From: Cytophagales bacterium
GTDB lineage: Bacteria; Bacteroidota; Bacteroidia; Cytophagales; 172606-1
Length of the DNA: 64,000 nt
Assembly (NCBI GenBank): GCA_030446715.1
Contig: JAUJMU010000005.1
Span: forward strand, 87,709 to 151,708
Reading direction: 5' to 3'
Shown: piece by piece, positions 19,662 through 28,156 of the stretch
Layout: the number at the start of each line of letters is the position of its first letter
How positions within the stretch are numbered: position 1 is the stretch's first letter
Translations under genes and position numbers: made by a program
Notes under the pieces: model-generated
What the model was told of the DNA's origin: nothing
Seen by the model: only the letters and a program-made list of their open reading frames with translations
Database searches by the model: none

Positions 19662-19885
19662 GCAGATAATAAATTAAACTACTCCCTGTTAAGGCGTTAA
19701 CCTGTCAGTTTCAGGAATTGTTTCCGTGATTTAAAGGAAGTTGTTTCCCCTGCCTGACATCATTTGCAGCATTTCAGGACAGGAATACCCGGTATTATCC
19801 AATTCCTATGGCATCCGGCTGCCCGGCGGGCAGCCAGGAAAGAGGTAATTTCGGACAAATAATTTGCCCCATTTTAGCAGGCTTT

Positions 19886-19919
19886 TTTGGGATAACCAGC
19901 CGCTTATACTCTATATTTG
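19886..19919 (+). promoter_or_regulatory. Promoter of the nuo operon
   Basis: TTTG (19886-19889), 22 bases, TATATTTG (19912-19919), matching the Bacteroidota TTTG / TAnnTTTG pattern. The predicted leader to nuoA is about 55-60 bases. Confidence 0.65.
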
Positions 19920-19980
19920 CAGCCTGATACATAATTCATTGCAAAATTCTCTTTCAGGATAGTTCCAAAATATAACAAAA

Positions 19981-20364
19981 ATGCAACAGTACCTGCCTTC
20001 TGATTACCTGCCCATAATCGTGCAACTTGTGCTGGCTTTGGGCTTTGTGGCCACTACCATGCTGGCTACCAATTATATTATTCCCAAGATTTTCCGCAAC
20101 CGGGTGCACGGCAAAGTAAAAGACGATACCTGGGAGTGCGGCATCGAACCTCAGGGCGACGCCCGTACCCCTATTTCCATCAAATACTTTCTGACAGCCA
20201 TTCTTTTTGTGCTCTTTGATGTGGAAATCATTTTTTTGTACCCGTGGGCGGTAAATTTCCGGTCACTTGGCTGGCTGGGTTTTGCCGAAATGATCGTATT
20301 CATGACCCTGCTGATGGCGGGTTTCTTTTACGTGATCCGCAAGGGCGTACTGAACTGGGATTAA
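19981..20364 (+). CDS. nuoA: NADH-quinone oxidoreductase subunit A
   Basis: 127 residues, three membrane helices (about 12-34, 64-84, 97-117). The family signature YECG-like WECGIEPQGDAR precedes the second helix, followed by ISIKYFLTAILFVLFDVEIIFLYPW (partly quoted). NuoA is a small membrane-arm subunit near the quinone site of complex I. It is the first gene of the operon, which runs to nuoN at 34725. A 15-bp hairpin separates it from nuoB. Confidence 0.96.
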   Translation: MQQYLPSDYLPIIVQLVLALGFVATTMLATNYIIPKIFRNRVHGKVKDDTWECGIEPQGDARTPISIKYFLTAILFVLFDVEIIFLYPWAVNFRSLGWLGFAEMIVFMTLLMAGFFYVIRKGVLNWD

Positions 20365-20414
20365 ATTTACCGCCGGAAATCCGAAAGCAGTAAAATCAGC
20401 ACGAAAAACCTGAC

Positions 20415-20450
20415 AAATTTCTCCGGAAAGAACATTTCCGGAGAAATTTT
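20415..20450 (+). other. Hairpin between nuoA and nuoB
   Basis: Perfect 15-bp stem AAATTTCTCCGGAAA/TTTCCGGAGAAATTT (20415-20429 with 20435-20449), 5-base loop. The T-run is weak (four T, then GG). It may be a leaky attenuator or an mRNA processing/stability element. Confidence 0.7.
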
Positions 20451-20527
20451 GGTTAAAAGATAAAGGCGGGGAAAGTAACGTGGTCCGCAATTATCTCATC
20501 ACATCAAGTTCAGAAAAGTATTATATT

Positions 20528-21070
20528 ATGAGTAAAATAAACATGGTAGAAGCACCGGCTGGTGTAGAAGGGTCAGGATTTTTTGCTACCTCTTTTGACA
20601 AAGTGATCGGTATGGCCCGCGCCAATTCTCTTTGGCCCCTTCCTTTCGCTACTTCTTGCTGCGGAATTGAGTTTATGGCCACCATGGCCTCTCACTACGA
20701 TATTTCCCGGTTCGGGTCTGAACGTCCGAGCTTTTCCCCGCGTCAGGCCGATCTGCTGATGGTCATGGGAACCATTGCCAAAAAAATGGGTCCGATCGTG
20801 AAGCAGGTATACCAGCAGATGGCCGAACCCCGCTGGGTAATGGCCGTTGGTGCCTGCGCCTGTAGTGGCGGAATATTTGACAGCTACAGCGTGCTGCAGG
20901 GCATTGACCGGGTAGTACCCGTTGATGTATACGTACCTGGTTGCCCGCCCCGTCCTGAGCAGATCATCGAAGGTCTGATGAAAGTGCAGGAGCTTGCCCG
21001 CAATGAGTCGCTGCGCCGCCGCAATTCAGATGAATACAAACAGTTGCTTGAGTCTTATAAAATCGGATAA
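20528..21070 (+). CDS. nuoB: NADH-quinone oxidoreductase subunit B
   Basis: 180 residues from the ATG at 20528; the frame opens at 20480 but the extra residues are not conserved and would start soon after the hairpin. The N2 [4Fe-4S] ligands are visible: tandem cysteines in ATSCCGIEFM (44-45), GACACSGG (110) and VPGCPPRPEQI (139). NuoB carries the last cluster before quinone in the peripheral arm of complex I. There are no membrane helices. Confidence 0.97.
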   Translation: MSKINMVEAPAGVEGSGFFATSFDKVIGMARANSLWPLPFATSCCGIEFMATMASHYDISRFGSERPSFSPRQADLLMVMGTIAKKMGPIVKQVYQQMAEPRWVMAVGACACSGGIFDSYSVLQGIDRVVPVDVYVPGCPPRPEQIIEGLMKVQELARNESLRRRNSDEYKQLLESYKIG

Positions 21071-21081
21071 AATTAACCGCA

Positions 21082-21147
21082 GGTCAGAGAGCTGGCCGGA
21101 ACTGAGAAATGATTAATCACAGTCACTATCCGGCCAACTCTCTGACC
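21082..21147 (+). other. Hairpin between nuoB and nuoC
   Basis: Arms 21082-21100 and 21129-21147 pair over 18 of 19 positions (GGTCAGAGAG and TGGCCGGA with one C-A mismatch between), loop 28 bases. No T-run follows, so it is not a standard terminator. The stem sits 15 bases before the nuoC ATG. Confidence 0.65.
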
Positions 21148-21161
21148 CGCTAACCCTTAAA

Positions 21162-21659
21162 ATGAGCAATCAGGAGATCACTGAAGATTTAGCATCCCGT
21201 TTTGGTGAGGCCATTTTTGATGTCCATGAACCTTATGGCTTTCTTACCCTCACTACTACCCGGGATCATATTATCGACGTTCTGCAGTACCTGTATAACC
21301 ATAAGACATTCAGATTCGGGTTCCTGACCGACCTTGCGGGTATTCATTATCCCGATCTCACCGGCAACGAACTGGCAGTGGTTTACCACCTGCACAGCTG
21401 GACCAACAATGTCCGGATGCGGATCAAAGTATTTGTACCGGCGGCTGATCCGGTAGTACCCACGGCTTCTGCTCTGTTTGCCGCCGCCAACTGGATGGAA
21501 CGCGAAACCTTTGACTTCTACGGTATTGTTTTCCGGGGGCATCCAAACCTGATCCGCGTGCTGAACATGGAAGATATGGACTACTTCCCCATGCGGAAGG
21601 AGTACCCGCTGGAGGACCAGACGCGTCAGGATAAAATAGATTCCTACTTTGGAAGGTAA
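21162..21659 (+). CDS. nuoC: NADH-quinone oxidoreductase subunit C
   Basis: 165 residues. The family motif ERETFDFYGIVFRGHPNL (about 111-128) and the C-terminal FPMRKEYPLEDQTRQDKIDSYFGR (partly quoted) are clear. NuoC is the 30-kDa-type subunit that packs against NuoD in the peripheral arm of complex I. Here it is a separate gene, not fused to nuoD as in E. coli. It is 26 bases from nuoD. Confidence 0.95.
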   Translation: MSNQEITEDLASRFGEAIFDVHEPYGFLTLTTTRDHIIDVLQYLYNHKTFRFGFLTDLAGIHYPDLTGNELAVVYHLHSWTNNVRMRIKVFVPAADPVVPTASALFAAANWMERETFDFYGIVFRGHPNLIRVLNMEDMDYFPMRKEYPLEDQTRQDKIDSYFGR

Positions 21660-21685
21660 TCCTTCCCTCAGCTTTTTGATTTACT

Positions 21686-22945
21686 ATGTCCCACATAAAA
21701 GAAATACAACCCGATGTACAGATAGTCCCTGCCCAGCCACAGGTGAAAGTGGAAGTGGGTCAGGCGCTTCCGGAGTACATAAATGAGTTGACCACCCTTA
21801 ACCTTGGTCCTACTCACCCGGCCACGCACGGCGTATTCCAGAATATTCTGCAGATGGATGGGGAGAAGATTATTTCAGGTGTTCCCACCATCGGCTACAT
21901 CCACCGGGCATTTGAAAAAATTGCGGAAAACCGCCCTTTTTACCAGATTACGCCCCTTACCGACCGGCTCAATTACTGCTCTTCCCCCATCAACAACATG
22001 GGCTGGCACATGACAGTGGAGAAACTGCTCGGCATTGAGGTGCCCAGGCGGGCCCAGTACATCCGGGTAATTGCCATGGAACTGGCCCGTATCTCGGACC
22101 ACCTGATCTGCAACGGCATCCTTGGCGTGGATACGGGTGCGTTTACCGGCTTTCTTTACCTGTTTCAGGAAAGGGAAAAGATTTATGATATCTACGAGGA
22201 GATCTGCGGCAGCCGCCTGACGACCAACATGGGCCGGATCGGTGGCATGGAGCGGGACTTCAACGAAAGAGCCGAGGCTAAACTGCGGCAGTTCATGAAG
22301 GGTTTCCCGGCCGTGATGAAGGAGTTTGAGGGGCTGTTCAACCGGAACCGTATTTTCATGGACCGTACCGTTGACGTGGGTCCGATCACTGCCGAAAGAG
22401 CCATGAATTACGGCTTTACCGGTCCCAATCTGCGGGCCGCCGGCGTGGACTATGATGTACGGGTGATGAACCCCTACTCTTCCTACGAAGATTTCGAGTT
22501 TGAAATCCCCGTTGGCCATAACGGTGATACGTATGACCGTTTCATGGTCCGGAACCAGGAAATCTGGCAGAGTTACCGCATCATTGAGCAGGCACTGGAA
22601 AAGTTGCCGGAAGGCCCTTACTTTGCCGATGCACCCGAGTATTACCTGCCCCCCAAGAAAGAGGTATACCGCAGCATGGAAGCCCTGATTTATCACTTTA
22701 AGATCATCATGGGTGAGATTGATGCGCCGGCCGGTGAAGTTTACCACCCCGTGGAAGGCGGTAACGGCGAACTGGGCTTTTATCTGATCAGTGACGGTGG
22801 CCGGACTCCTTACCGGTTGCACTTCCGCCGCCCCTGTTTCATTTACTACCAGGCTTTCCCGGAGATGATGGTTGGCACTACGCTGTCTGATGCAATTGTG
22901 ATCATGAGTAGCCTGAATGTGATTGCCGGTGAACTGGACGCTTAA
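21686..22945 (+). CDS. nuoD: NADH-quinone oxidoreductase subunit D
   Basis: 419 residues, the 49-kDa-type subunit. Motifs: LNLGPTHPATHGVFQ (about 38-52), GYIHRAFEKIAENRPF, DRLNYCSSPINNMGW, ELARISDHLICNG and RLHFRRPCFIYYQAFPEM near the C-terminus. The THPATHG loop with its histidines lies at the quinone site. An N-terminal extension of about 30 residues (QPDVQIVPAQPQVKVEV) is low-complexity and probably variable. Confidence 0.97.
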   Translation: MSHIKEIQPDVQIVPAQPQVKVEVGQALPEYINELTTLNLGPTHPATHGVFQNILQMDGEKIISGVPTIGYIHRAFEKIAENRPFYQITPLTDRLNYCSSPINNMGWHMTVEKLLGIEVPRRAQYIRVIAMELARISDHLICNGILGVDTGAFTGFLYLFQEREKIYDIYEEICGSRLTTNMGRIGGMERDFNERAEAKLRQFMKGFPAVMKEFEGLFNRNRIFMDRTVDVGPITAERAMNYGFTGPNLRAAGVDYDVRVMNPYSSYEDFEFEIPVGHNGDTYDRFMVRNQEIWQSYRIIEQALEKLPEGPYFADAPEYYLPPKKEVYRSMEALIYHFKIIMGEIDAPAGEVYHPVEGGNGELGFYLISDGGRTPYRLHFRRPCFIYYQAFPEMMVGTTLSDAIVIMSSLNVIAGELDA

Positions 22946-22964
22946 TTTATCTATTCAAAGTGCT

Positions 22965-23486
22965 ATGATCGAGCATACCCAAACGGACGTACGGTTTCCC
23001 GAAGAGACACTGAAGCAAGTTCGGGAAATTATCAGCCGCTACCCTGAAGGTCGGCAGAAGTCCGCTATTTTACCCATTCTGCACCTTGCGCAGAACGAAT
23101 GGAACTGGCTGAGTGCACCCGTAATGGATTACGTGGCCACGCTGCTGGACATCCAGCCGATTGAGGTTTATGAAGTGGCTACTTTCTATACCATGTTCAA
23201 TCTGGAGCCGGTGGGCAAGTACGTACTGGAAGTGTGCCGCACGGGCCCCTGCTGTCTGCGTGGAGCCGAGCAGCTGATTGAACACATTGAGAATAAGTTT
23301 GGCATCCAGGTGGGACAAACCTCACCGGATGGCATGTTTACCCTGAAAACCGTGGAATGCCTTGCTGCCTGCGGTGGTGCGCCTTGCCTGCAGGTACGCC
23401 TGAAGCGGGAAGGTGGCATTCATAAATATTACGAAAATCTCACTCCGGAGAAGGTTGACGGGTTGGTAGAAAAAGAGTGGGTTTAG
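22965..23486 (+). CDS. nuoE: NADH-quinone oxidoreductase subunit E
   Basis: 173 residues from the ATG at 22965, 19 bases after nuoD; an earlier in-frame ATG inside nuoD is less likely. Thioredoxin-like 24-kDa subunit with the [2Fe-2S] N1a ligands in VCRTGPCCLRGAE and VECLAACGGAPCLQV. The N-terminal helical part shows LPILHLAQNEWNWLS and IYEVATFYTMF-like VYEVATFYTMFNLEP. Its natural partner nuoF is displaced 460 bases downstream by an accessory gene. Confidence 0.95.
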   Translation: MIEHTQTDVRFPEETLKQVREIISRYPEGRQKSAILPILHLAQNEWNWLSAPVMDYVATLLDIQPIEVYEVATFYTMFNLEPVGKYVLEVCRTGPCCLRGAEQLIEHIENKFGIQVGQTSPDGMFTLKTVECLAACGGAPCLQVRLKREGGIHKYYENLTPEKVDGLVEKEWV

Positions 23487-23522
23487 CAGCATAATTTTTC
23501 GGAAATCAAAATAGATGGTTAT

Positions 23523-23936
23523 ATGCTCGATTTGCCGATTATGGGTGTAAATGCCCCAAAAGAACACCAGAGAGTGATCCGAAAACTTGCCATGAAACTC
23601 GGCAACTTGTTTGAAGACGGAAGCATTCCCTATGAGCCTTTTCCGGAAACGATGATAGATGAAGGAAAAACCAGTCAAGCCCCTGATCTGATTTTGTTTG
23701 ACAACGAAAATTACCAGAATAAGGTAATCATTGAAATTACAACACCTCCTGGATTCAAGAATGACTTTGAAAAAGTAGCTGTAATAGCAGAAAAGTATGA
23801 AGTATCCGAGGGTTTTGCTTACGACTACATCAAGAAGCAATGGCGCAAGTACAAGTATGGCGTAGGTGAAATCACCGAGAACCCCTCTTACTGCGAGTCA
23901 ATTGGGTACGATTTAAATACTTTCCTATTGAAATAA
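23523..23936 (+). CDS. PD-(D/E)XK / Uma2-like protein inserted in the nuo operon
   Basis: 137 residues, ATG 36 bases after nuoE and stop 10 bases before nuoF. The layout fits the Uma2/DUF820 endonuclease-like fold: an early histidine helix (APKEHQRVIRKLAMKLGNLF), QAPDLILFD (PD at 54-55), then VIIEITTP (E71), then NDFEKVAVIAEKYEVSEGFAYD. The third catalytic residue is not a clear lysine, so activity is uncertain. The base composition is visibly AT-richer than nuoE or nuoF, with different codon choice, suggesting later acquisition. It is not a complex I subunit; its role is unknown. Confidence 0.75.
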   Translation: MLDLPIMGVNAPKEHQRVIRKLAMKLGNLFEDGSIPYEPFPETMIDEGKTSQAPDLILFDNENYQNKVIIEITTPPGFKNDFEKVAVIAEKYEVSEGFAYDYIKKQWRKYKYGVGEITENPSYCESIGYDLNTFLLK

Positions 23937-23946
23937 GTTAAAACCA

Positions 23947-25287
23947 ATGGCAATTAAAATATTAACCGAACATATTAATAAGCCGGGCATCGAAACCTTC
24001 GAGGTATACCGTCAGCACGGTGGCTACGCCGCCGTGGAGAAGGCACTGAAGAAGATGACACCGGATGAAGTGGTGGAAGAGGTAAAGAAATCCGGTCTGC
24101 GGGGCCGGGGTGGTGCCGGTTTTCCGGCGGGCATGAAGTGGGGTTTCCTCGCCAAGCCCGAAGGCAAGCCCCGTTACCTGGTGTGCAACGCCGATGAAAG
24201 TGAGCCGGGTACGTTCAAGGACCGTCACCTGATGGCCCATTCTCCCCACACGCTCATTGAAGGGATGATTGTAGCCTCTTATGCCCTGGGAGCCAAAACT
24301 TCTTACATCTACGTAAGAGGTGAAATGCTTTACGTTATCCGCATTCTGGAGAAAGCCATTGCGGAGGCGTATGCCAAAGGTTTTTTAGGCAAAAATATTC
24401 TGGGTACCGACTATTCTCTTGATCTGTACGTTCACCCGGGTGGTGGTGCCTACATCTGCGGGGAAGAGACGGCCCTGCTCGAATCACTGGAAGGCAAGCG
24501 GGGCAATCCGCGCAATAAACCGCCTTTCCCGGCTGTCTCAGGATTATATAACTGCCCTACGGTGGTTAACAACGTAGAAACAATTGCCGCAGTCTCCTGG
24601 ATTATCAACAACGGTGGCGAGGAATACGCCAAGGTCGGAGTAGGCCGCAGCACAGGTACCAAGCTGATTTCCGCCTGCGGAAACATCAACAAGCCCGGCG
24701 TGTACGAGATTGAGCTGGGTGTTCCGGTGGAGGAATTCATTTATTCTGATGAATACTGCGGCGGCATTGCAGGCGGCAAAAAGCTGAAGGCGGTAGTGGC
24801 AGGCGGTTCATCAGTACCTGTTTTACCGGCTAACCTGATTACGAAGACAGCCAGCGGAGAAAATCGCCTGATGACGTACGAATCCTTGTCGGACGGCGGT
24901 TTTGCAACGGGCACCATGCTTGGCTCCGGTGGTTTCATTGTCTTCGACGAAGATCAGTGCATCGTGCGGAACACCTGGAACTTCAGCCGCTTTTATCACC
25001 ATGAGTCCTGTGGCCAGTGCAGCCCCTGCCGCGAAGGAACGGGCTGGATGGAGAAAGTACTGCACCGCATTGAGTATGGTCATGGGCACGCCCACGACAT
25101 TGACCTGCTGGTAGATGTAGCCAGGAAAATTGAAGGAAATACCATTTGCCCGTTGGGCGACGCTGCGGCGTGGCCGGTAGGCAGTGCCATCCGTCACTTC
25201 CGTGATGAGTTTGAGTGGCACATCAGGCACCCGCACGAAGCTACCCGGAAGGGAGCAGTTTACCGGAAGGAAGCCGTGTTAGTGTAA
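23947..25287 (+). CDS. nuoF: NADH-quinone oxidoreductase subunit F
   Basis: 446 residues, the 51-kDa NADH-binding subunit. Motifs: GLRGRGGAGFPAGMKW (50-65, nucleotide binding), CNADESEPGTFKDRHLM (FMN), GAYICGEETALLESLEG, and the N3 cluster ligands HHESCGQCSPCREGTGWM with the fourth Cys in NTICPLGDAAAW. It accepts hydride from NADH on FMN and passes electrons to the Fe-S chain. Thirteen bases after its stop, a hicB-hicA pair begins. Confidence 0.97.
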   Translation: MAIKILTEHINKPGIETFEVYRQHGGYAAVEKALKKMTPDEVVEEVKKSGLRGRGGAGFPAGMKWGFLAKPEGKPRYLVCNADESEPGTFKDRHLMAHSPHTLIEGMIVASYALGAKTSYIYVRGEMLYVIRILEKAIAEAYAKGFLGKNILGTDYSLDLYVHPGGGAYICGEETALLESLEGKRGNPRNKPPFPAVSGLYNCPTVVNNVETIAAVSWIINNGGEEYAKVGVGRSTGTKLISACGNINKPGVYEIELGVPVEEFIYSDEYCGGIAGGKKLKAVVAGGSSVPVLPANLITKTASGENRLMTYESLSDGGFATGTMLGSGGFIVFDEDQCIVRNTWNFSRFYHHESCGQCSPCREGTGWMEKVLHRIEYGHGHAHDIDLLVDVARKIEGNTICPLGDAAAWPVGSAIRHFRDEFEWHIRHPHEATRKGAVYRKEAVLV

Positions 25288-25300
25288 TTATTAAGTTTTT

Positions 25301-25531
25301 ATGAAACTCAACAAAGAAATTCATTTGCCGGTTTTGGTGGAGTTGGATGAAAATGGGGTTTTCATCGTCAGCTGTCCTCTTTACAAGGGTTGCCATACCT
25401 ACGGAAAGAACATTGATGAAGCAATGATTAACTTAAGAGAAGTAGTCCAGATGTGCATGGAGGAAGAAGAATCCCAACCTTCCAACACATACATCGGATT
25501 CCGGGAACTAGCATTTATATCACATGCCTAA
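25301..25531 (+). CDS. hicB: HicB-family antitoxin, short form
   Basis: 76 residues with the partial RNase-H-like HicB fold: LPVLVELDENGVFIVSCPLYKGCHTYGKNIDEAMINLREVV (partly quoted; the family pattern is D-x-G-x-F-x-V-x-x-P...G...G-x-x-x-x-E-A). The usual C-terminal DNA-binding helix or ribbon domain is lacking; the protein ends soon after the helix. It should neutralise HicA but may not bind an operator, so expression probably rides on the nuo promoter. It overlaps hicA by eight bases. Confidence 0.82.
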   Translation: MKLNKEIHLPVLVELDENGVFIVSCPLYKGCHTYGKNIDEAMINLREVVQMCMEEEESQPSNTYIGFRELAFISHA

Positions 25532-25766
25532 ACTGCCCGTACTTTCCGGCAAAGAATTAATCAAGCTTTTGGAACGCATAGGGTTTATAACGGTGAGAGT
25601 GAACGGGTCCCATCACCGCATGAAATCTGACGATGGAAGAGTTACAACTGTGCCGGTCCATGGTAATGATGACTTACCCGTCGGTTTACTGAGAAAAATA
25701 ATCCGTGAAGATTTACAGTTGAGCCTGGAAGCGTTTGTTGATTTATATAACCAATTCAGAGGTTAA
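25524..25766 (+). CDS. hicA: HicA-family mRNA interferase toxin
   Basis: 80 residues, dsRBD-like HicA fold. The signature GKELIKLLERIGF (9-21) leads to VNGSHHRMKSDDGR, with the catalytic-type histidine at 30, then VTTVPVHGNDDLPVGLLRKIIRE (partly quoted), which is the usual end of the family. HicA toxins cut mRNA. The ATG at 25524 lies within the hicB end (ATGCCTAA), giving coupled translation. It stops 28 bases before nuoG, inside the respiratory operon. Confidence 0.88.
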   Translation: MPKLPVLSGKELIKLLERIGFITVRVNGSHHRMKSDDGRVTTVPVHGNDDLPVGLLRKIIREDLQLSLEAFVDLYNQFRG

Positions 25767-25794
25767 CACTTCTGGAATTTATTGTTGAAAAGCA

Positions 25795-26847
25795 ATGGCC
25801 GACGAAAAATTAATGTTCAAAGTAACAGTAGATAATATAGAGGTTGAAGTAGAGCCGGGCACCACCATTTTACAGGCGGCCCGCAAGATTGGCGGAGACG
25901 TAGCGCCTCCCGCCATGTGCTACTACTCAACGCTGAAAGGAACGGGTGGCAAGTGCCGGGCCTGCCTTGTAAAAGTAGCCGCCGGTTCGGCAAAAGATCC
26001 CCGCCCGATGCCTAAACTGGTGGCGTCATGCATTACGCCGGTTCAGGATGGAATGATTGTGCAGAATACGACCAATCCGGAAGTGCTGGAAACCCGCAAA
26101 GCTGTGGTAGAGTTTCTGCTGATCAATCATCCGCTGGACTGCCCCGTATGCGACCAGGCCGGAGAATGCAGCCTTCAGGATTTTGCTTACGAACACGGTG
26201 CCGTAAGTACCCGCTATGAAGAAGAACGCCGCACTTTTGATAAAGTAGACCTTGGGCCGTACGTGCAGCTGCACATGACCCGTTGCATTCTTTGCTACCG
26301 CTGCGTGTATACGGCGGATCAGCTCACCAATAAGCGGGTCCATGGGGTACTGGGCCGTGGCGATGCCGCCGAAATCGGCACGTACATCAAAAACTCGCTG
26401 GACAATGACTTCTCCGGCAACGTGATTGATGTATGTCCGGTTGGTGCCCTGACGGATAAGACTTTCCGGTTTAAAAGCCGCGTATGGTTTACCAAACCAG
26501 TGGATGCCCACCGGGATTGCGACAAATGCTGCGGTAAAGTTGTATTGTGGTACAAGGGCGACGACGTGCTCCGGGTGACTACGCGCCGCAATGAGTGGAA
26601 CGAGGTAATGGAATACATCTGTAATACCTGCCGGTTTGAGAAAAAGAAAACCAGTGACTGGGTGATTGAAGGACCGCGGTCAATTGATCCAAGGTCAGTG
26701 ATTTCTCAGAACCACTACAAAAAGAAGGTAGTACCGGATTACATTCACAGAGTAGCTGCTGCTTACAAGCCTATTGACGAAGCCCCGAGGCAGTTGCCGG
26801 AAGGACAAAAACCAGTCGGACTGGACATGCGGACAGAGCCTAAGTGA
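25795..26847 (+). CDS. nuoG: NADH-quinone oxidoreductase subunit G, short form
   Basis: 350 residues. [2Fe-2S] ligands: C42, C54, C57 and C79 (PPAMCYYSTLKGTGGKCRAC, LVASC). The His/Cys cluster N5 is in HPLDCPVCDQAGECSLQ, and the N4 motif in RCILCYRCV with VCPVGALT. The protein ends shortly after a CDKCCGKV...CNTC region and lacks the large molybdopterin-oxidoreductase-like domain of E. coli NuoG (about 900 residues). The frame is intact and such short forms are usual in this phylum, so I do not regard it as broken. Confidence 0.93.
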   Translation: MADEKLMFKVTVDNIEVEVEPGTTILQAARKIGGDVAPPAMCYYSTLKGTGGKCRACLVKVAAGSAKDPRPMPKLVASCITPVQDGMIVQNTTNPEVLETRKAVVEFLLINHPLDCPVCDQAGECSLQDFAYEHGAVSTRYEEERRTFDKVDLGPYVQLHMTRCILCYRCVYTADQLTNKRVHGVLGRGDAAEIGTYIKNSLDNDFSGNVIDVCPVGALTDKTFRFKSRVWFTKPVDAHRDCDKCCGKVVLWYKGDDVLRVTTRRNEWNEVMEYICNTCRFEKKKTSDWVIEGPRSIDPRSVISQNHYKKKVVPDYIHRVAAAYKPIDEAPRQLPEGQKPVGLDMRTEPK

Positions 26848-26995
26848 AATTTTGAATTCTGAATTTTACATGGTGAATGTGAGTGGTCCAATGGGTGAAT
26901 GTTTATGACTTACTTTTGTTCACTGAGCATTTAACACTCATAATTTACCATTTCAGACCTGATCAGTAAGCGTATTTATTTTAAATTTCTGCAAA

Positions 26996-28156
26996 GTGGA
27001 GTTATCCGTTTTTATAGTAAAGTCAATCATCATTCTGGCAGTGTTCGGCGTTTCCCTGCTGATTGCCACCTACTCAACCTGGGCGGAACGGAAAATAGCA
27101 GCTTTTTTGCAGGACCGGCCAGGTCCTAACCGGGCTGGTATTTTCGGACTGCTGCAACCCATTGCCGATGCCGGTAAAATGTTCTTCAAGGAAGATTTTA
27201 TTCCCCGGCAGGCCAACAAATGGTTGTTTATCGCTGGCCCGTCGCTGGCCATGCTTACCGCCTGTATGACCAGTGCGGTAGTGCCTTTCGGCGACACAGT
27301 GCTGGTAAACGGTGCCGAGGTCACGGTGCAGGGCATTGACATCAACATCGGTATACTGTACGTGTTCGGAGTGGTTTCGCTGGGCGTATACGGAGTGATG
27401 ATCGGCGGCTGGGCTTCCAACAATAAGTTTTCCCTGCTGGGTGCCATCCGGGCGGCTTCCCAGAACATCAGCTACGAACTGGCGATGGGTCTTTCCATCA
27501 TTGCCATTCTGATGATGAGCGGTTCATTGTCCCTGAGAACCATCGTGGAACAGCAGCACGGCATGAACTGGAACATATTCTTCCAGCCGGTCGGATTTAT
27601 TATTTTCCTCACCTGCGCTTTTGCGGAGTGTAACCGGACCCCGTTTGACCTTCCAGAGTGCGAAACTGAACTGATCGGCGGCTACCACACGGAGTACAGC
27701 AGCATGAAACTTGGCTTCTATCTGTTTGCCGAATACATCAATATGTTCGTTTCTTCGGCCGTGATTGCAGTGCTGTATTTTGGTGGATACAACTACCCGG
27801 GTATGGACTGGGTCCGGGAATCCCTGATTGGTGGCCTTGGCCTTAACTGGGGTCATAACCTGGCTACGCTGGTTGGGACAATGGTATTCTTCGGGAAAAT
27901 CTTTTTCTTTATTTTCTTCTTCATGTGGGTCCGCTGGACGCTTCCCCGCTTCCGGTACGATCAGCTCATGAACCTTGGCTGGAAAGGACTGATTCCGCTG
28001 GCCATCCTGAACGTAGTGCTTACCGGAGCCGGTCTGCTGGCCGGTACCCGACTGCTGAGCTGGGTGCTGATCCTCGGAGTTGTGCTGGTAGCCACCATTC
28101 AGGCAGGCACTGCCCGGAAGCGGACTGTCGCCGCCGGACGATTGTCTAAAGTATAA
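26996..28156 (+). CDS. nuoH: NADH-quinone oxidoreductase subunit H
   Basis: 386 residues from a GTG at 26996 (MELSVFIVKSIIILAVFG). Eight or nine membrane helices. Family motifs AERKIAAFLQDRPGPNRAG (about 31-49), FAECNRTPFDLPECETELIGG and HTEYSSMKLGFYLFAEY are clear. NuoH forms the quinone entry and links peripheral and membrane arms of complex I. The 148-base spacer before it carries ATTTTGAATTCTGAATTTT-type sequence and an imperfect inverted repeat (26870-26885 with 26935-26951). Confidence 0.96.
   Translation: MELSVFIVKSIIILAVFGVSLLIATYSTWAERKIAAFLQDRPGPNRAGIFGLLQPIADAGKMFFKEDFIPRQANKWLFIAGPSLAMLTACMTSAVVPFGDTVLVNGAEVTVQGIDINIGILYVFGVVSLGVYGVMIGGWASNNKFSLLGAIRAASQNISYELAMGLSIIAILMMSGSLSLRTIVEQQHGMNWNIFFQPVGFIIFLTCAFAECNRTPFDLPECETELIGGYHTEYSSMKLGFYLFAEYINMFVSSAVIAVLYFGGYNYPGMDWVRESLIGGLGLNWGHNLATLVGTMVFFGKIFFFIFFFMWVRWTLPRFRYDQLMNLGWKGLIPLAILNVVLTGAGLLAGTRLLSWVLILGVVLVATIQAGTARKRTVAAGRLSKV

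Follow-up and report, generated by a model that had tools for sequence, protein, structure and literature searches.

A Class 2 hicBA module as a probable passenger, presumably read through from upstream, in the complex I operon of a Cytophagales bacterium

What is a toxin-antitoxin pair doing inside the operon for respiratory complex I? The question is raised by a stretch of 64,000 nucleotides from a Cytophagales bacterium, here called the window, whose + strand carries a nuoA-nuoN operon. An earlier note on this DNA had described a Hic-type pair with an eight-base overlap, set 13 bases after nuoF and 28 bases ahead of nuoG, and its coordinates proved exact. On the + strand, nuoF (23947-25287, the stop ending at 25287; Complex1_51K, E 3e-49) is followed by a 13-base spacer (25288-25300), by hicB (25301-25531, antitoxin of 76 aa), by hicA (25524-25766, toxin of 80 aa), which starts within the end of hicB, and then by a 28-base spacer (25767-25794) and nuoG (25795-26847; Fer4_Nqo3, E 7.5e-29). 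Further upstream on the same strand lies nuoE (22959-23486, start codon approximate; PF01257, E 1.1e-52), and the spacer between nuoE and nuoF holds a second passenger, orfX (23523-23936), weakly Uma2/PD-(D/E)XK-like. The Pfam matches identify the flanks of hicBA as true complex I genes, and the one NuoG match in the window genome lies within this operon. We consider it well supported that hicBA is a passenger here, and we give a probability of about three in four to the fuller reading, that it is a promoterless Class 2 module lodged in the nuoF-nuoG spacer and expressed by read-through.

The identity and position of the pair are secure. HicA matches the Pfam family PF07927 (HicA_toxin) at 73.5 bits against a cut-off of 27 (E 1.5e-20) and, by sequence, the PDB entries 1whz, 6g26 and 4c26. 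Its His30, in a GSHH motif, and His46 are invariant in an alignment of 14 sequences, and alignment to 6g26 puts His30 at what we take to be the catalytic position of that protein. HicB matches PF15919 (HicB_lk_antitox) at 29 bits against a cut-off of 27 (E 1.3e-6), over profile positions 2-47 of 123, and by sequence 6g1c, which is an N-terminal HicB domain, and 2yzt. The structural model of HicB, made with 15 relatives (mean pLDDT 80), has strands at residues 12-15, 21-24 and 32-35 and a helix at 38-55, making up a single domain with no residues remaining for a DNA-binding domain. Its best Foldseek matches are Thermus 2yzt and the Burkholderia HicB N-domain 6g1c, with modest E-values (4e-3 and 6e-3) despite a probability of 1.00, and the Pfam match, the model and the PDB matches together indicate a partial RNase H fold. 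Both proteins of the earlier note's Hic-type pair thus match Hic families by HMM, and Pfam and model agree with its remark that HicB has no C-terminal DNA-binding part. From the anatomy of the pair and from known HicAB systems (PMC11594946), HicA is a predicted RNase toxin.

Class 2 hicBA modules, as defined by Gerdes 2024 (PMC10865869), have hicB first, a HicB of 63-103 codons without a DNA-binding domain, a HicA of 60-85 aa, and genes that are linked or overlapping; in that study, hicBA without a DNA-binding domain is the commonest two-gene form, and its regulation is posed as a question. The HMM, structural and alignment evidence shows that the pair in nuo is of this kind, with hicB first, 76 codons long, devoid of a DNA-binding domain and overlapping hicA by 8 bases, as opposed to the hicAB of Classes 3 and 4, where hicA comes first and HicB ends in a C-terminal HTH or RHH. 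In our sample, modules in the order hicB-hicA had a short HicB in 79 cases and a long one in 3, and those in the order hicA-hicB had a long HicB in 37 of 43. The close relatives outside nuo, e.g. those of L082 to L088, have a short HicB too. Since these free-standing relatives are also short, the missing domain is a trait of the class and not due to entry into nuo. The suggestion made earlier, that the short HicB reflects self-regulation lost upon embedding, is therefore contradicted, a short HicB being the norm for this gene order, and we reject loss of the DNA-binding part through embedding (cf. PMC10865869).

The window genome (G000) was compared with two congeners (G001 and G002) and two further members of the family (G003 and G005). 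G002 (Cytophagales bacterium YX2bin28, also our locus L081) carries hicBA in the corresponding nuoF-nuoG spacer, with 70% and 74% identity and with 69 bases upstream of hicB. Between G000 and G002 the synonymous sites of hicB and hicA are saturated while pN is 0.14-0.15, which argues that both proteins are under purifying selection and, together with the overlapping orthologous arrangement in a congener, that the pair is beyond chance. In the hicA of G002 (L061 9128-9370), codon 62, right behind the core domain, is a TAA stop in frame, and the downstream frame still resembles the hicA of the window; the stop is either a recent truncation or a sequencing error, and because of it this copy may be decaying. 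G001, a draft genome with 7% contamination, has a clean empty site in an intact nuo operon, with nuoF and nuoG 44 bases apart, and is nearer to the window genome than G002 in nearly all nuo genes compared. The pair is absent from G003 and G005, and within our sample of the order hicBA in nuo is limited to the window genome and G002.

The simplest reading of this distribution is that G000 and G002 kept the pair and G001 lost it, the direction of loss following from relatedness, and two independent gains in G000 and G002 are a possible alternative. The composition of hicBA is foreign and AT-rich, with a GC content of 42-43% against 48-54% in the nuo genes, low in both of the genomes that carry the pair. 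An ancient and conserved part of nuo, which the earlier note had allowed might be the case, is rejected on the patchy distribution, and the comparison of spacers shows a lineage-specific pair. Known plasmids and viruses yielded only distant HicA relatives (<60% identity), and a recent derivation from one of them was rejected as well. The pair would have been acquired horizontally in or before the ancestor of the genus, one congener having later lost it.

When 84,980 species genomes were searched for close relatives of HicA, 18 strong Bacteroidota loci emerged, 7 of which lie within nuo operons, one of them that of G002. In the other six (L085, L089, L090, L093, L096 and L098) the related pair sits between nuoE and nuoF, not between nuoF and nuoG, and in five of the six it stands behind an AHSA1-like gene. 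The hosts are Chitinophagaceae-like, one of the six being labelled Chitinophagaceae, and since five of these loci are close kin, the independent events are few, perhaps two or three. In the best tree, built on HicB and HicA together, the context switches three times between nuo-embedded and free-standing, and the pairs of the window genome and G002 are sisters with support of 100/99; a single origin of the nuo-embedded pairs is neither shown nor rejected (AU P 0.114). Close HicA was found in 13 of 197 Chitinophagaceae genomes. A decayed hicA remnant, corresponding to HicA residues 50-76, stands just 5' of an intact nuoF in one genome, G235.

The same spacers accommodate much else. In 109 Chitinophagaceae loci surveyed from nuoD to nuoG, spacers of >250 bp made up 61 of 99 between nuoE and nuoF, 47 of 105 between nuoF and nuoG, and 8 of 89 between nuoD and nuoE, rates that may be biased upward because the loci were picked non-randomly, for their resemblance to NuoF from a genome that itself has passengers. 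The control, atpH-atpA in Chitinophagaceae, gave 0 of 26, all spacers being 25-164 bp where atpH was adjacent; against this control, a single operon and thus a thin one, Fisher tests gave 1e-9 for nuoE-nuoF and 2e-6 for nuoF-nuoG. The window's own order had 4 of 11 and 2 of 22 in these two spacers, where numbers are small. Across both samples, 152 of the 157 spacer ORFs of at least 60 aa are co-oriented with nuo, with a binomial P of 8e-39 that overstates the evidence, because ORFs of the same family share descent; every multi-member family is co-oriented. The passenger families include DUF4440/SnoaL-like, PD-(D/E)XK nuclease, glyoxalase-like, NlpE-like, 23S-rRNA intervening (23S-IVP) and aspartyl protease proteins, and there is also an AAA ATPase, accompanied by a partner gene, that resembles defence ATPases such as GajA and AriA. 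In Chitinophagaceae, the nuoE-nuoF and nuoF-nuoG spacers act as sites where small co-oriented genes land.

Several single loci deserve mention. The AAA ATPase gene (matching GajA, AriA and Old models) follows nuoF in several Chitinophagaceae (L251 4358-5990, similar in L163, L177 and L199), in several loci with a partner of unknown family. Between nuoE and nuoF, L080 (5401-6235) has a 156-aa protein, PIN-like by eye and with no Pfam match, plus a 124-aa ORF. Aspartyl-protease-like genes follow a second, distant nuoF-like gene in L169 (2672-3088) and L170 (2673-3086), and genes of this kind are also found after nuoF. In the congener G001 (L062 14241-15527), a gene for a 428-aa outer-membrane beta-barrel protein lies between nuoD and nuoE.

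The second passenger of the window, orfX, is present in all three congeners with a low GC content; it has no Pfam match at 1e-3, and its weak matches are to Uma2 (E 0.14) and PADLOC PDC-S03 (E 7e-4). Its protein is 97% identical to that of G001 with a dS of 0.35, the flanking nuo genes having a dS of about 1.0-1.3, and the tract of high identity between G000 and G001 runs from the nuoE stop to the end of orfX. Its sequence suggests a recent exchange of a single cassette; exchange within a longer tract including nuo genes was rejected, as the tract is bounded by the nuoE stop and orfX.

How, then, might hicBA be expressed? The only + strand consensus promoter match in 19700-27100 is a Bacteroidota-type site, TTG-N22-TANNTTTG, at 19887-19919, 61 bases 5' of nuoA and presumed to be the nuo promoter. 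Alone this match is weak, since the window holds 4 such matches against 1.9 expected, a count that is not significant; a nearly identical site precedes nuoA in G001, and G002 retains the -7 box. The spacer between nuoF and hicB has no promoter or terminator match, and the scans for a promoter there and for a terminator after hicA gave no signal above shuffles; a weak hairpin spans 25755-25776, and there too the terminator-like scan finds no more than in shuffles. Consensus scans miss non-consensus sites. The earlier note had the pair driven by the nuo promoter, which stands as likely, the only + strand consensus match being the one that precedes nuoA. Its argument that the pair has no room for a promoter was too strong, in view of the longer spacer in G002 and of a possible promoter inside nuoF.

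The genomic context of other modules is suggestive, the test resting on simple ORF gene calls and on classes that differ in taxonomy. Among 102 non-redundant modules, the median distance to a co-oriented upstream gene was 67 bp in Class 2 against 153 bp in modules with a long or DNA-binding HicB (P 0.0015), and 70 against 153 bp without the nuo cases (P 0.004); 35% of Class 2 lay within 60 bases of the upstream gene against 3%. This difference depends on the distance threshold: from 150 bp upward it weakens, the P at 150 bp being 0.08. The window genome has a second hicBA pair (L003, C18:926831-930001), co-oriented with its neighbours, 59 bases after a branched-chain aminotransferase-like gene and before a CTP synthase-like gene, both recognized by eye.

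As hicBA has no evident promoter and its HicB no DNA-binding domain, the pair would most likely be transcribed by read-through from the nuoA promoter. With hicB first and the hicA start inside it, gene order and translational coupling would provide an excess of antitoxin, and HicB would block the RNase site of HicA; both read-through and coupling are proposed here from the anatomy of the locus and from known HicAB systems (PMC11594946). The module would be one among many small co-oriented accessory genes turning over in the nuoE-nuoF and nuoF-nuoG spacers of this bacterial group, and it may bring its host some benefit, such as phage defence. A broader picture, which we offer tentatively and are somewhat inclined to doubt, is that the nuo operon of this group of Bacteroidota serves as an integrase-free docking site. 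Small co-oriented cassettes, including toxin-antitoxin and defence-like pairs, would enter its nuoE-nuoF and nuoF-nuoG spacers, be swapped there and disappear again, with the nuo promoter driving their expression, and Class 2 hicBA would be adapted to such life in a host operon.

Other explanations can be put forth. Promoters within coding sequence are common and the consensus scan is weak, so that hicBA could be autonomous, with a promoter in the 3' part of nuoF or in the spacer and its placement in nuo incidental. This seems unlikely given that no + strand consensus site lies between nuoA and nuoG, that HicB has no domain for self-repression, and that passengers so strongly co-oriented would seem to depend on read-through. 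It can also be imagined that the pair has a function within the respiratory operon, having been recruited to adjust nuo mRNA or to couple growth arrest to complex I expression, as the recurrence of related pairs inside nuo in two groups of bacteria, the purifying selection on both genes and the site kept in two congeners with sister pairs would allow. However, the large majority of relatives with an intact nuo, including a close congener, are without the pair, its spacer differs between the groups, and unrelated genes occupy these very spacers (SnoaL-like, glyoxalase-like, PD-(D/E)XK nuclease, 23S-IVP, AAA ATPase), a variety that makes a specific link to respiration less likely; we hold such a role to be distinctly improbable.

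The toxin-antitoxin nature of the pair, and its tight packing between genes that would be costly to lose, could likewise point to a selfish addiction module that stabilises itself via the operon, or stabilises the operon. The empty site and intact nuo of G001, where the direction of loss is read from relatedness, the hicA remnant beside an intact nuoF in G235 and the possible decay of hicA in G002 make this very improbable, and the first two contradict the earlier idea that pair and operon protect each other from loss. Least credible of all is that hicBA entered nuo long ago and has since disappeared from it repeatedly: the AU test allows one origin of the nuo-embedded pairs, but the best tree needs three changes, the spacers differ between the groups, nearly all intermediate lineages are without the pair, and GC is low in both congeners that carry it.

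With hicBA read as a passenger dependent on read-through, the nuo-embedded loci suggest a testable answer to how Class 2 modules are regulated, namely that the transcription of a host operon is borrowed. The survey suggests that accessory genes have repeatedly entered a core respiratory operon, and defence and toxin genes could be sought in nuo operons, outside defence islands. The literature searched, with subscription papers mostly outside its scope, contains no description of passengers, toxin-antitoxin or other, in the nuo operons of Bacteroidota.

In another phylum, the nuo/nqo operons of Paracoccus and Rhodobacter are interspersed with unidentified reading frames, which are not known to be toxin-antitoxin genes. 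The Thermus HicB-like protein 2yzt (TTHA1756) and HicA-like protein 1whz share with the window pair the short single-domain HicB fold and the HicA fold, but are distant in sequence, with 26% identity between the HicB proteins. A toxin-antitoxin module within a housekeeping operon has been described by Makarova 2009 (PMC2701414): Thermus thermophilus HB8, unlike HB27, has an MNT-HEPN module inserted in its operon for lysine biosynthesis. The likeness extends to the close relative without the module, whereas the toxin family is another and the case is a single one that does not extend to a survey of further passengers there. The nearest counterpart is Class 2 itself (PMC10865869, whose main text is silent on nuo and NADH), which has the same gene order, the small HicB without a DNA-binding domain and the linked or overlapping genes of the window pair, but is discussed there mainly in defence islands and mobile contexts, while the window pair resides in a core respiratory operon.
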